Shown here: one piece after another, positions 47,842 through 52,147 of the stretch
How the letters are laid out: each line of letters starts with the position of its first letter
Position numbering within the stretch: the first letter of the stretch is position 1
Assembly (NCBI GenBank): GCA_015478725.1
Contig: JADMIG010000007.1
Location: 1 to 64,000 of the forward strand
Source: Chloroflexota bacterium
Lineage (GTDB): Bacteria; Chloroflexota; Limnocylindria; Limnocylindrales; CSP1-4
Reading direction: 5' to 3'
Length of the DNA stretch: 64,000 nucleotides
Program-made: the position numbers and the translations under genes
Notes under the pieces: model-generated
Told to the model about the DNA's origin: nothing
The model's input: only the letters and a program-made list of their open reading frames with translations
Database searches by the model: none

Positions 47842-49197
47842 TCACCGAACCATCGCGACGCCCCCGCCGGGGCGGCTCGCGGACGGCTCGTCCGTCGTCG
47901 CCCACGGGACGATCTGGCGGTCGAGCCACTCGGCCGGCTCCATCCGTGGCCGGATGAGCGCGGCCCGACCGTCCCGGATCGCGACTTCCGCCGGCATCGG
48001 GTGGGAGAGGAACAGCGGCATCGACTCGGCGAATCCGTAGGCGCCGACGTCGAGGACGGCGACGAGATCGTCCGGCCGTGGGGCCGCCATGACGGTCGAC
48101 GCGGCGAGCACGTCGAGCCCGGAGCAGAGCGGTCCGGCGATCGTCACCCGCGTCGGCTCAGCGGCACCGGCTGCCCGGTCCGTGAGCCGCTCCCCGGTCC
48201 GGGGCAGGAGCCGGATCCGGTGCTCCTGGCCCACGAGGACCGGACGGAGCAGGTGATTGATCCCGCCATCGAGGATCGCGACGGTCGAGCCGTCGACGGC
48301 CTTCGTGTCGACGATTCGGGCGACGTACGTTCCGGCCGGGCCGACGAGATACCGCCCGGGTTCCACGAGGATCCGCAGGCCTCGGGTCGCCGGGTCCGCG
48401 GCGACGCGCTCGGTGAGTGAGGCGAGGCGGCGCGCCAGCTCGTCGAGATCGAGCGCTCGTTCGTCCGGCCGATACGGGATGCCGAGCCCGCCGCCGACGT
48501 CGACGAGCCGGAGGCGGAAACCAGCCTCCGCGGCCATGGTCCGGCCGAGGTCCACCACCCAGGCCGCGTGGTCGGCGAGTGCCGCCGCGTCGAGGACGTT
48601 CGAGGCCCCGAAGGCGTGGATCCCGAGCGGCTCGAGGTGCGGCGACCGGGCCGCCGCGACGGCCGCGGCCCGCAGGTCCGCGAGGCCCATCCCGAACTTG
48701 CCCGCCCCCGCGTCACCGACGATCCGGAGGCGCTCGAGCTGGGCCGCACTCGGGACGGCCGCCCGAAGCAGGACCGGGACGCGCCGCCCGCTCTCCGCCG
48801 CCAGGCGTTCGAGGCGCTCGAGCTCGCCGGGCGACTCGACGGTGATCGCCCGAACGCTCGCCTCGACAGCGGCCCGCAGTTCGTCGGTCCGCTTGCCAGG
48901 GCCGGTCACGACGATGCGCGACGGGTCGATCCCCGCCCGACGAGCGGTCTCGAGCTCGCCGCCCGACGCGACGTCCGCCCCGAGGCCGAGCGAGCCGAGG
49001 AACGACACGACCGCCAGCGCCGGGTTCGCCTTCACCGCGTAGGCAAGCTCGAACGCCGGCGGGAGTGCGGCGACGAGCGCGGCGACCTGCCGCTCGATGA
49101 CGGCGAGGTCGTAGACGTAGAGCGGCGTGCCGAACGTCTCGGCCAGTGTCGCCAGATCGGTGGGTGCCGCCACCTCGATCGCCGCCGGTGCCGTCAT
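47842..49197 (-). CDS. lysA: Diaminopimelate decarboxylase
   Basis: A 451-residue fold type III PLP enzyme. Lys56 in LAYAVKANPALA binds PLP; DVGGGLGIPY and EPGRYLVGPAGTY bind phosphate and substrate; GPLCSGLDVLA supplies the active-site Cys from the partner subunit. It converts meso-diaminopimelate to lysine, the last step of the pathway. The start overlaps the dapD stop by ATGA. Other members of this fold act on ornithine or arginine, but the dap context settles the assignment. Confidence 0.9.
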   Translation of the reverse strand: MTAPAAIEVAAPTDLATLAETFGTPLYVYDLAVIERQVAALVAALPPAFELAYAVKANPALAVVSFLGSLGLGADVASGGELETARRAGIDPSRIVVTGPGKRTDELRAAVEASVRAITVESPGELERLERLAAESGRRVPVLLRAAVPSAAQLERLRIVGDAGAGKFGMGLADLRAAAVAAARSPHLEPLGIHAFGASNVLDAAALADHAAWVVDLGRTMAAEAGFRLRLVDVGGGLGIPYRPDERALDLDELARRLASLTERVAADPATRGLRILVEPGRYLVGPAGTYVARIVDTKAVDGSTVAILDGGINHLLRPVLVGQEHRIRLLPRTGERLTDRAAGAAEPTRVTIAGPLCSGLDVLAASTVMAAPRPDDLVAVLDVGAYGFAESMPLFLSHPMPAEVAIRDGRAALIRPRMEPAEWLDRQIVPWATTDEPSASRPGGGVAMVR

Positions 49198-50036
49198 CGG
49201 AGCGCCTCCTCGAGCGCCACCCGGGCGTCCGTGCCGGCGTCGCGGTACTTCACGACGAGGGCGGTCGAGACGGACAGGCCGTGCGTCCGGGCGAACGTCC
49301 CGTCGAGCGTGCGCGATCCGGGGACGACGACCGCCCGCGGCGGGATCGCGAGCGGCGCGTCGGCCGTGCCGGTGAGCACGTCGTCCGTCGTGAGGTCGTA
49401 GAGGCGCGACGTCCCGGTGAGGATCGTCCCTGCCGCGAGGACCGCCTCGGCCCCGACGAGGACACCCTCGAAGAGCCCGCACTGGGCGCCGACGAACGCG
49501 CCATCCTCGACCACGACCGGCCGTGCCCCCGGCGGCTCGAGGACGCCGCCGATCTGGACGCCCGCGGCGAGGTGGACGCGAGCACCGATCTGGGCGCACG
49601 AGCCGACGAGGACGTGCGAGTCGATCATCGTGTCCTCGCCGATCCAGGCGCCGACGTTGACATACGACGGCGGCATGACGACGACGCCGGGTCCGAAATG
49701 GACGCCGGCCCGGATGGTGGTCCCGCCCGGGACGATCCGCCACGGCCGACCGGCTGCGGCGGCGGTCTCGGCGAGCGGTCCGTCGAGGAGCGTCTTGAGC
49801 GGGAGGCCGGCCCGGTCGCGGAACTGGAAGACGCCGCCGAGGTCGCGATCGACGGTGGTCCGATCGGCGAAGCGGGCGAGGATCGCCGCCTTCACGGCGA
49901 TGTCGACGCGCCAGCCGCCGGGCACCGCGGGGTCCGGCCAGGCGGCGCGGACCCGGCCGGCGTCGAGCTCATCGAGGATCGTCCGCGGATCCAGCGCCGC
50001 CGCGGACCCTGGCCGGCCGGGCCCAGGCGCGATCAC
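49194..50036 (-). CDS. dapD: Tetrahydrodipicolinate N-succinyltransferase
   Basis: A 280-residue left-handed beta-helix acyltransferase. Hexapeptide repeats run from IRAGVHFGPGVVVMPPSYV through IGARVHLAAGVQIGG to EAVLAAGTILTG, after a helical N-terminal domain that binds substrate. It makes N-succinyl-2-amino-6-ketopimelate, so the organism uses the succinylase branch. GTG start overlaps the dapA stop (GTGA). DapD is ordinarily about 270-300 residues, so it is complete. Confidence 0.9.
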   Translation of the reverse strand: MIAPGPGRPGSAAALDPRTILDELDAGRVRAAWPDPAVPGGWRVDIAVKAAILARFADRTTVDRDLGGVFQFRDRAGLPLKTLLDGPLAETAAAAGRPWRIVPGGTTIRAGVHFGPGVVVMPPSYVNVGAWIGEDTMIDSHVLVGSCAQIGARVHLAAGVQIGGVLEPPGARPVVVEDGAFVGAQCGLFEGVLVGAEAVLAAGTILTGTSRLYDLTTDDVLTGTADAPLAIPPRAVVVPGSRTLDGTFARTHGLSVSTALVVKYRDAGTDARVALEEALR

Positions 50037-51025
50037 GCGACCACTCCCGCCGCGACCGCGGTCCCTGCCGTCCGGGTTCGGCCGGCCGGCGTCTCGATGA
50101 GCCCGGCATCGCGGAGCACGGCCGCGAGCCTCGCTCGGGCCGGTTCCTCGAGCGGGAGGAGCGGACCGCGGACCGCGTCGCTGCGGAGGATGCCCATGAG
50201 GGCCAGGGCGGCTTTCGCCGGGACGGGATTCGGCGCGTCCATGAAGTTCGCCCGGAAGAGGGACAACCAGCGGGTGTGAAGGCGGCGCGCGGTCTCGAAG
50301 TCGCCGGAGCGAGCCGCGGCGCAGAGGGCGACCATCTCGCCCGGGATCTCGTTCGAGGCGACGGAGATGACGCCGTCGCCGCCCATGACGAGGACCGCGA
50401 GCGTCCAGGCGTCGTCGCCGGCGAGGACCGCGACGTCGCGCGGGCGATCACGGCAGATGACCGCGATCTGGTCGAGGTTCGCCGACGCCTCCTTGATCCC
50501 GATGACCCGCGGATGCTCGGCGAGCCGCAGGAAGACGTCCGCAGGGACGTTCGAGCCGGTCCGCGACGGCACGTTGTACACGACGATCGGCAGATCGCCC
50601 TCGTCGGCGACGGCGCGGAAGTGCGCCTCGAGCATCCGCCCGTCCGGCCGGTTGTAGTACGGCGCGACGACGAGCGCGGCGTCCGCCCCGAGCTCGGCGG
50701 CCCGGCGGGTGGCCCGGATCGTCGCTGCGGTGTCGTTCGTGCCGGTGCCGGCGACGACCGTCACCCGCGAGCGCGACGGTCGTTCGGCCGCCGTCTCCAC
50801 GGTGAGGGCGACGATCCGCTCCCGCTCCCCGGTCGAGAGGGTCGGCGCCTCGCCGGTGGTGCCGCACGGGACGAGGCCGTCGATGCCGGCGAGGATCTGC
50901 CAGCGGACGAATTCGCGGAGGGTCCCCTCGTCCACGGCGCCGTCGGCTGTGAACGGGGTGACGAGGGCGGTGAAGGCGCCGCGGAGCGCGGGGCGGGTCG
51001 CGGGTCGGCTGGTGCGAGGTGACAT
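50033..51025 (-). CDS. dapA: 4-Hydroxy-tetrahydrodipicolinate synthase
   Basis: A 330-residue class I aldolase-fold enzyme. The Schiff-base Lys lies in VIGIKEASANLDQ, the catalytic Tyr in VVYNVPSRTGSN and the Thr pair in PCGTTGEAPTLS. It condenses pyruvate with aspartate semialdehyde. The N-terminal 17 residues and the C-terminal 20 are Arg/Ala-rich extensions. AAAGGA precedes the ATG by about 9 nt. An 8-bp tandem repeat separates it from dapB. Confidence 0.93.
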   Translation of the reverse strand: MSPRTSRPATRPALRGAFTALVTPFTADGAVDEGTLREFVRWQILAGIDGLVPCGTTGEAPTLSTGERERIVALTVETAAERPSRSRVTVVAGTGTNDTAATIRATRRAAELGADAALVVAPYYNRPDGRMLEAHFRAVADEGDLPIVVYNVPSRTGSNVPADVFLRLAEHPRVIGIKEASANLDQIAVICRDRPRDVAVLAGDDAWTLAVLVMGGDGVISVASNEIPGEMVALCAAARSGDFETARRLHTRWLSLFRANFMDAPNPVPAKAALALMGILRSDAVRGPLLPLEEPARARLAAVLRDAGLIETPAGRTRTAGTAVAAGVVA

Positions 51026-51041
51026 CGGAGGGATCCTTTCG

Positions 51042-51113
51042 GTGGTCGGGTGGTCGGGTGGTCGGGTGGTCGGGTGGTCGGGTGGTCCGGTGGTCGGGTG
51101 GTCGGGTGGTCGG
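51042..51113. repeat. Nine tandem copies of an 8-bp unit inside the dap operon
   Basis: GTGGTCGG is repeated nine times without interruption (51042-51113), the sixth copy differing at one base (GTGGTCCG). The array fills the space between the dapB stop (51116) and the dapA ribosome binding site. Copy number could change by slippage. Confidence 0.92.
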
Positions 51114-51115
51114 CG

Positions 51116-51892
51116 TCAGCCGGCCCGGGCGAGGGCGACAGCCTGAGGCGCGATGAGCTCGTCGACGATCGAGGTGAACTCGACGATCCCCGGCGTCCGC
51201 GGGGCGGCGATCAGCCAGTCCACCGCGGCGAGCGCGCCGGCGACATAGGCCGATCGATCGCGGGCGGTGAGCCGGAGCTCGATCGTCTCGCCCGGCGCGT
51301 CGAAGCCGACGAGGTGCATGCCGGGCGATGAGCCGGCTCGCACGACCGCGACATCGAGCTCGTCCGGTGCGAGTGGCCCGTCGTCGCGCGGATCGTGGAG
51401 GCGTCGCTTCCTCGGGTGCGCCGCGAGGATGCGGCGCGAGAGCTCCCTTGCGGTCCCGGACGGCCGGTCCAGCTTGGACCGGCGATGCCATTCGAGGAGA
51501 TACGGGTCGAAGGCGTCGATGGGACCGAGCAGCTCCACCGCTCGATCGACGAGCCGACCGAACAGCGCGACCCCGAGACTGAGGTTCGCGCCGACGACCG
51601 CCGTCGCGCGATGGTCGCGAAGCGCGGTGTCGACGGCCGATCGGTCGCCGTCCCAGCCGGTGGTCGCGATGACGAACCGGCGGCAGCCGGCGGCGAGCGC
51701 GGCGGCGACATCGCCGACCACCGCATCGCCGCGCGAGGCGTCGATGGCGAGGTCCGGTTCGTTCAGGTCCCGCGGGTCATGGCGGCCCGTCGCGGGCCGG
51801 CCGAGGACGCGGGGCGGTGCGCCGCCGCGTTCAGCGAAGCCGGCCGCGATCGCCCGGCCCAGGCCTCCATCGCCGAAGATGATCGTGTCCAT
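51116..51892 (-). CDS. dapB: 4-Hydroxy-tetrahydrodipicolinate reductase
   Basis: A 258-residue DapB. The nucleotide loop is IIFGDGGLGRAIAAG; the substrate site LLEWHRRSKLDRPSGTA matches HHxxKxDxPSGTA. It reduces the DapA product with NAD(P)H. ATG at 51892 is chosen because GAGGG lies 8 nt upstream; the frame continues 17 codons further upstream but without support. First gene of the operon dapB-dapA-dapD-lysA. A long structured leader precedes it and can sequester its ribosome binding site. Confidence 0.9.
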   Translation of the reverse strand: MDTIIFGDGGLGRAIAAGFAERGGAPPRVLGRPATGRHDPRDLNEPDLAIDASRGDAVVGDVAAALAAGCRRFVIATTGWDGDRSAVDTALRDHRATAVVGANLSLGVALFGRLVDRAVELLGPIDAFDPYLLEWHRRSKLDRPSGTARELSRRILAAHPRKRRLHDPRDDGPLAPDELDVAVVRAGSSPGMHLVGFDAPGETIELRLTARDRSAYVAGALAAVDWLIAAPRTPGIVEFTSIVDELIAPQAVALARAG

Positions 51893-52112
51893 GTCGTCGT
51901 CCCTCGTGGTCGAGGGGCCGGTGGTTCGGAGACTTCGTCGCACAGAACGAACGAGCCGCGGTCACCCGTTGGTGTCCGCGGCCCCTGAGCCTCCGTCCCG
52001 GAGGCCCCATTCGGTCGTCTGTGCGCGCCGATCAGAGCCCCAGGGCCCGTGCCTCCCGACAGGGCCGCCAGAGCTTCTGCTTCGCCTGCTGGTCGAAGGA
52101 GGAGCGCATCGC
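51893..52112 (-). promoter_or_regulatory. Structured leader of the dap operon with alternative folds
   Basis: About 220 nt of leader on the minus strand. (1) The dapB Shine-Dalgarno GAGGG lies in a hairpin CCCTCG/CGAGGG (51916-51911 with 51906-51901). (2) CGGCCCCT (51920-51913) is exactly complementary to AGGGGCCG (51986-51979); forming it would break hairpin 1. (3) AGGGGCCG shares bases with hairpin 51982-51971/51966-51955 (12 bp, one mismatch), which would prevent 2. (4) A second hairpin sits at 52005-51999/51995-51989 and an 8-bp closing helix joins 52025-52018 with 51946-51939. The result is sequestor/anti-sequestor logic like a translational riboswitch or T-box. No known class was recognised with confidence. 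Confidence 0.6.
52032..52109 (-). CDS. 25-codon leader ORF of the dap operon
   Basis: ATG at 52109 lies 9 nt after the -10 box and the frame runs to TGA at 52034-52032, just before the closing helix of the leader. The product begins MRSSFDQQAKQKLW and ends RALGL; it has two Lys codons close together and no recognised domain. It may be a regulatory leader peptide or a small protein, or it may not be translated. Confidence 0.4.
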   Translation of the reverse strand: MRSSFDQQAKQKLWRPCREARALGL

Positions 52113-52118
52113 CCGCGC

Positions 52119-52147
52119 ACCATACGCGATGCGTGGAATATGCGCAA
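52119..52147 (-). promoter_or_regulatory. Promoter of the dap operon
   Basis: On the minus strand TTGCGC (52147-52142), exactly 17 nt, TATGGT (52124-52119). The expected start is near 52112. A hairpin (52105-52112 with 52126-52133) covers the -10 box and could be a protein-binding site. Confidence 0.5.

Follow-up and report, generated by a model that had tools for sequence, protein, structure and literature searches.

The region upstream of dapB in the window, the whole stretch of 64,000 nucleotides of Chloroflexota DNA analysed here, very probably encodes a transcription attenuator of the trp/his kind, mediated by the ribosome and responsive to lysine. This reading draws on features of the compared sequences, namely a short leader ORF with its control codons, a promoter, terminator hairpins, three co-varying alternative pairings (1:2, 2:3 and 3:4) and paralogues with exchanged codons, from which translation of the ORF, stalling of the ribosome and the direction of the response to lysine are predicted. 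The sequence-only reading of the same region had proposed a cis-acting RNA with mutually exclusive structures controlling dapB, and this part is retained. That reading had, however, taken the element for a translational riboswitch. The evidence favours transcription attenuation, sensed by a ribosome on the Lys codons of the leader ORF (52109-52032), over a ligand-binding aptamer that acts on the Shine-Dalgarno sequence; the sequence-only reading had overlooked this ORF.

Promoter and downstream genes

The promoter elements and the genes following the leader were localised as follows:

52142-52147, minus strand, -35 hexamer TTGCGC
52119-52124, minus strand, -10 hexamer TATGGT, with a 17-nt spacer from the -35 hexamer and 9 nt 5' of the leader ATG
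51116-51892, minus strand, dapB (PF05173, 1.1e-22)
50033-51025, minus strand, dapA (TIGR00674, 5.8e-88)
49194-50036, minus strand, dapD (NF008808, 1.1e-73)
47842-49743, minus strand, frame containing lysA (TIGR01048, 4.3e-89)

The strings named in the sequence-only reading were all found at their places on the minus strand (TTGCGC at 52147-52142, TATGGT at 52124-52119, AGGGGCCG at 51986-51979, CGGCCCCT at 51920-51913 and CCCTCG...GAGGG at 51916-51901). Its promoter, TTGCGC-17-TATGGT, is kept in about 60 relatives, and the consensus at nearly all loci consists of TTG(ACA/CGC/CAT) followed, after a spacer of 17 or 18 nt, by a NATNNT-like -10 hexamer. The gap between the -10 hexamer and the start of the leader ORF was 9 nt in 38 of 61 relatives, and almost all of the remainder had a gap of 6-10 nt. 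Since the promoter of the window lies 9 nt before the ATG, the dapB leader mRNA is probably leaderless, with a 5' end that, judging from this geometry, would lie at or adjoining the leader ATG. A simple scan for promoter and terminator consensus sequences called nothing in the window, showing that single-sequence scanning misses the dapB leader element.

The PF05173 match bore out the earlier assignment of the downstream gene as dapB; its start is 51892, and the match of its product to TIGR00036 scores below the cutoff of that model. The dapB, dapA, dapD and lysA genes presumably make up one operon, of predicted extent, under the control of the leader. Between dapB and dapA the window contains a tandem GGTCGGGT-type repeat (about 51035-51105), and a different, GTCCGTTCG-like repeat was seen near the same place in locus L002.

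The leader ORF and its control codons

Two features define the coding part of the leader:

52032-52109, minus strand, leader ORF of 25 codons, MRSSFDQQAKQKLWRPCREARALGL and stop, with a counterpart in 64/64 non-redundant dapB loci
52074-52082, minus strand, control codons AAG CAG AAG (Lys-Gln-Lys; Lys10 and Lys12), with the Lys positions kept in relatives

As relatives we used 64 non-redundant dapB upstream regions, which came from the same family and class and also from contigs of Chloroflexi bacterium and Candidatus Limnocylindrales bacterium. A short ORF was present in each of these Limnocylindria regions (64/64) and ended about 100-160 nt 5' of dapB, its pattern being Lys-x-Lys (or Lys-Lys), usually followed by Trp-Arg-Pro-Cys-Arg-Glu-Ala-Arg and a stop. 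None of the 62 leader peptides analysed had fewer than two lysines (two in 26, three in 35 and four in one), compared with a lysine content of 0.83% of residues in the DapB proteins. When positions were counted from the Arg of the GCGG motif, lysine occupied position -3 in 59 of 61 peptides and position -5 in 56 of them, with position -4 between them free to vary and with both AAA and AAG in use. The control codons number only two or three, and their spacing to the P1 hairpin, the stop codon and the terminator is consistent among the dapB relatives.

Differences among relatives showed no excess at third positions, either near the N-terminus or in the RPCREARA stretch of the ORF, suggesting that, once the reading frame and the Lys codons are set aside, the constraint acts on the RNA and not on the peptide. 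The ORF is predicted to be translated and the ribosome to stall on the Lys codons, and the earlier suggestion of lysine or tRNA as the signal is upheld in that lysine or charged tRNA-Lys is the sensible one. The high conservation of RPCREAR in the dapB group could also be expected of a ribosome arrest peptide, the nascent RPCREAR... sequence responding to a ligand while in the exit tunnel and thereby stalling the ribosome. We consider this very unlikely, because the same stretch lacks the third-position excess, the nucleotides encoding it build P1 and the A' segment described below, the divergent loci L003 and L004 (RSWLEAWTP) and L018 lose the peptide and retain the hairpin, and the paralogues keep the RNA chassis with control codons changed to suit the pathway.

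Alternative structures of the leader RNA

The structural elements of the leader are the following:

52033-52079, minus strand, extended P1 hairpin (pairing 1:2), with its core at 52066-52044 and a GGGA loop
52060-52068, minus strand, A' segment GCGGCCCTG, overlapping the 5' arm of P1 and complementary to the 5' arm of the terminator
52035-52048, minus strand, segment 2 GGGCCCTGGGGCTC, the final codons of the leader ORF
51987-52008, minus strand, P2 hairpin (pairing 3:4) GGGGCCTCCGGGACGGAGGCTC, whose 5' arm is segment 3
51953-51986, minus strand, terminator hairpin AGGGGCCGCGGACACCAACGGGTGACCGCGGCTC
51943-51954, minus strand, weak U-tract with 4 T in 8 nt
51901-51916, minus strand, hairpin over the dapB Shine-Dalgarno sequence

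The dapB leader folds better than its dinucleotide shuffles (z -3.65; 0/200 as good). The energies calculated for the window were -31.0 kcal/mol for the extended P1, whose lower stem reaches into the Lys codons, -14.4 kcal/mol for the P1 core, -24.1 kcal/mol for 2:3, -15.1 kcal/mol for P2, -21.5 kcal/mol for the terminator and -17.1 kcal/mol for the pairing of A' with the terminator 5' arm (A':T5'). Among the dapB relatives the consensus of P1 is GGCCC-UGYC-GGGA-GGCA-C-GGGCC and that of P2 is GGCCUCC/GGAGGC.

Since the positions of P2 and segment 2 differ from one subgroup to another, RNAalifold recovers little, namely the terminator and part of P1 from the whole alignment, and covariation among relatives, proposed earlier as a check of the stems, was therefore assessed by a swap test, in which the arms were exchanged among 27 dissimilar representatives in 2000 permutations and native was compared with swapped pairing. 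Native arms beat swapped ones for the extended P1 (1:2; z -3.9, 0/2000), for 2:3 (z -5.4, 0/2000), for P2 (3:4; z -4.7, 0/2000) and for the terminator (z -3.4, 0/2000), but not for two helices of the sequence-only reading, its anti-sequestor and closing helix. In three control pairings among the same 27 representatives native arms were no better than swapped ones, which limits but does not abolish the concern that the swap test breaks phylogeny. The mutually exclusive pairings 1:2, 2:3 and 3:4 all co-vary in these tests. For P1 and the terminator, pair counts in the alignment were in accord, with a covariation score of 0.139, against 0.123 +/- 0.004 for shuffles and 0.098 or less for slid controls; ten pairs were changed on both sides in P1 and the terminator of the fixed alignment, and none in P2.

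The hairpin at 51982-51955 described in the earlier reading proved to be universal in relatives, with pairs changed on both sides, but its role appears to be that of a terminator hairpin, as T-rich sequence follows it in most of them. It lies about 40-90 nt 5' of dapB (GGGCCGCG ... CGCGGC), and relatives mostly have 4-7 T in 8 nt after it; the window's own tail, with 4 T of 8, is weak and goes unrecognised by the simple terminator scan. The same hairpin bears on the possibility of a T-box reading tRNA-Lys directly, for which a resemblance of GGGTGACCGCGG to a T-box sequence by eye could be cited, together with a T-box-like match before trpE in the same genome (L023; G000:C32:17701-17981, minus strand; 59.5 bits, below the gathering score). 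In relatives, what had been called T-box-like actually makes up the loop of the terminator hairpin together with its 3' arm, no RF00230 match was found at the dapB locus, and GGGTGACCGCGG lacks UGGN, as the sequence-only reading had itself remarked, with no UGGN bulge present; a T-box is thus practically negligible as an explanation.

A translational riboswitch, in which binding of a metabolite or tRNA would toggle between a sequestor of the Shine-Dalgarno sequence and an anti-sequestor, is also highly improbable here. Its sequestor hairpin is present in the window, has lower energy than shuffles and recurs loosely in relatives, the Shine-Dalgarno sequence lying in its 3' arm in 51 of 62, but its covariation was marginal (50/2000) and it is missing in some subgroups. 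Among the 27 representatives, the anti-sequestor, formed by the terminator 5' arm and the strand before the Shine-Dalgarno sequence, did not co-vary (562/2000), nor did the 8-bp closing helix (451/2000 permutations as good). The earlier statement that the element is not a lysine riboswitch holds, since RF00168 gave no match either at its gathering threshold or with E relaxed to 5, and an Rfam scan of the element at gathering and relaxed thresholds returned chance matches only and no family. A riboswitch would, moreover, leave the conserved ORF, the Lys codons, the terminator and the Met and Cys paralogues unaccounted for. As a second, translational layer compatible with the attenuator, the Shine-Dalgarno hairpin might also limit dapB translation. 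Its recurrence and marginal covariation point in this direction, but we think such a layer rather unlikely, given that the hairpin is not universal and that in GC-rich genomes hairpins of this sort may arise fortuitously.

For the attenuator itself, a further element is the exact complementarity of A' (GCGGCCC) and the terminator 5' arm (GGGCCGC), which are invariant in the alignment of the Lys, Met and Cys leaders. The swap test for A':T5' gave 44/2000, a figure in which near-invariance leaves little covariation support. A rod-shaped antiterminator built on A':T5' would fit the folds, and we lean towards its detailed geometry, although the exact shape of the rod is beyond proof by covariation. 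Thermodynamic folding of full-length leaders in the different ribosome states was taken as a guide to this geometry and not as proof; the terminator was still favoured in most states and sequences, which means that the leader would have to switch kinetically, as the trp attenuator does.

Methionine and cysteine versions of the leader

A covariance model built from the dapB leader element (R1) matched the dapB copies in Limnocylindria and, in the same genomes, a further tier of paralogous loci. In front of metY, the product of which is O-acetylhomoserine sulfhydrylase (TIGR01326), the leader carries Met-x-Met in 23 of 24 loci and Ile-Cys-Met in the remaining one, the middle residue of Met-x-Met being Cys, Ser, Ala or Gln. 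The genome of the window contains one of these copies (L162; G000:C1:9315-9451, minus strand), in which a leader reading ...MCMRWRPRRAEDGV and stop precedes metY. Cys-x-Cys was found before a cysE-like gene in all four cysE loci read (L195, L198, L209 and L215), where the best match of that gene is to TIGR01172, below its cutoff, and where cysK (TIGR01139) follows in L195 and L198; leaders of this group end in CSCPRRPRRR, CFCPQRPRRRR and CLCPRRRPRRRR, each followed by a stop. Further copies with Met/Cys codons were detected at the following loci:

L206, L205, L167, L169, L168, L179, L213, L196, L210, L211 and L212, further Met/Cys-codon copies

The genes preceded by these copies are those for sulfite reductase, carbonic anhydrase, OsmC-like and DUF4395 proteins and PALP enzymes. 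The second-tier loci L182, L183, L186 and L194 were set aside as looking like chance or unrelated matches, and relaxing the R2 model to E 0.3 added mostly short or weak chance matches below about 25 bits.

In the Met family the A' segment lies +14 from the first control codon, just as it does in the Lys version, and swap tests again showed that 2:3 and 3:4 co-vary, with 1:2 weakly supported (100/2000). The control codons follow the regulated pathway, as codon-sensing attenuation predicts and as a ligand-binding riboswitch, a T-box or an arrest peptide would not; this was the most stringent test of the attenuator. As one joint proposal, we consider it likely that duplication has distributed a modular chassis (control codons - GCGGCCC - P1 - P2 - GGGCCGC terminator) among the Limnocylindria, and that an exchange of its control codons between Lys, Met and Cys has placed dapB, metY, cysE-cysK and further sulfur genes under its control, that these are the first lysine- and methionine-codon leader-peptide attenuators, replacing lysine and SAM riboswitches, and that a lysine version arose independently in Blastocatellia.

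Proposed mechanism

Transcription would begin at the leader ATG or immediately 5' of it, and the leaderless mRNA would then be bound by a ribosome. With plentiful lysine, the ribosome would pass Lys10 and Lys12 and reach the stop codon, where segment 2 would be masked or refolded into P1, giving the form with P2 and the terminator and ending transcription before dapB. With scarce charged tRNA-Lys, it would stall on the Lys codons and block the lower stem of P1, lowering the stability of this hairpin from -31 to -14 kcal/mol; since a ribosome in this position would remove the lower stem, the balance would tip from 1:2 to 2:3. Segment 2 would then pair with the 5' arm of P2 (about -24 kcal/mol), P2 would be lost, and the terminator 5' arm would be drawn into the long antiterminator rod (A':T5'), allowing dapB-dapA-dapD-lysA to be transcribed.

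Comparison with known systems

Leader-peptide attenuation is an established kind of regulation, known from trp, his, thr, leu, ilv and cys. The dapB leader resembles the trp (E. coli trpL), his, thr, leu and ilv attenuators in having a short ORF with pathway-matched control codons, the 1:2, 2:3 and 3:4 alternatives and a terminator hairpin before the first structural gene. The Limnocylindria leaders differ from the trp type in their use of lysine, methionine or cysteine codons, in having two control codons with one codon between them, in an ORF that is probably leaderless, in the reuse of one chassis with exchanged codons and in a terminator 5' arm that is also complementary to the segment right after the control codons.

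Like the Cys-x-Cys version, the polycysteine sORF attenuators of mycobacteria (Canestrari et al. 2020, cited in PMC13236596) and the cys leader peptides (PMC1262725) have Cys-codon short ORFs before sulfur genes. The mycobacterial leaders are leaderless (cited in PMC13236596), as the Limnocylindria leader ORF probably is, and this arrangement ties the two together. The cys leaders of PMC1262725 have no obvious terminators, whereas the Limnocylindria chassis has a terminator hairpin as well as Lys and Met versions. In the same survey of Actinobacteria, no RNA elements were found for lysine and methionine operons, which elsewhere are under L-box and S-box riboswitches (PMC1262725). The lysine riboswitch (RF00168, L-box) and the SAM riboswitches (S-box) likewise exert cis-RNA control over lysine or methionine genes, but the dapB leader has no aptamer match, and sensing by codons is proposed for it. 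The putative leader peptide SEP5 of S. meliloti also holds three Lys codons; unlike the dapB leader, it has six Thr codons too and precedes an aspartate dehydrogenase gene, and it is put forward, in an excerpt of PMC10117765, as a proposal without an attenuator structure. A terminator survey of 2010 added Firmicutes to the leader-peptide systems, which had previously been known only from Proteobacteria and Actinobacteria (PMC2965389).

The literature searched contained no attenuator with lysine or methionine control codons for which a structure was defined, and none from Chloroflexota; the Lys and Met specificities and the modular scaffold are apparently new, as is the phylum. RNA control of lysine and methionine genes is described in that literature as riboswitch-based, and the present results point to codon sensing in uncultured bacteria. 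The series of control codons changing on a constant RNA scaffold provides the codon-sensing model with a test made by nature, and a scaffold with exchangeable codons could be a part for programmable amino-acid sensors.

Distribution and other leader elements

Of 177 Limnocylindria genomes, 85 contained the element according to the R1 model, and when 400 genomes were sampled across the phylum, clear R1 scores were obtained in members of Limnocylindria only. Matches elsewhere in the phylum, with E no lower than 0.005, seem to be due to chance.

A different Lys-codon leader ORF (KRVKR.G.DPP.PEE) was seen about 90-200 nt 5' of dapB in five Blastocatellia-type genomes of Acidobacteriota (L216-L220). 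These leaders have a strong terminator directly before dapB (CCCCTCGAAACCCTCGGTTTCGAGGGGCTTTTT in L219), and their GGGGCCCGATCC is complementary to GGATCGGGCCCC at the base of the terminator. It looks like the same principle, arisen independently. In another Limnocylindria family, two successive terminator-like hairpins with T-runs precede ABC-transporter-like genes (L184, L185 and L214), and these are possibly another leader element.
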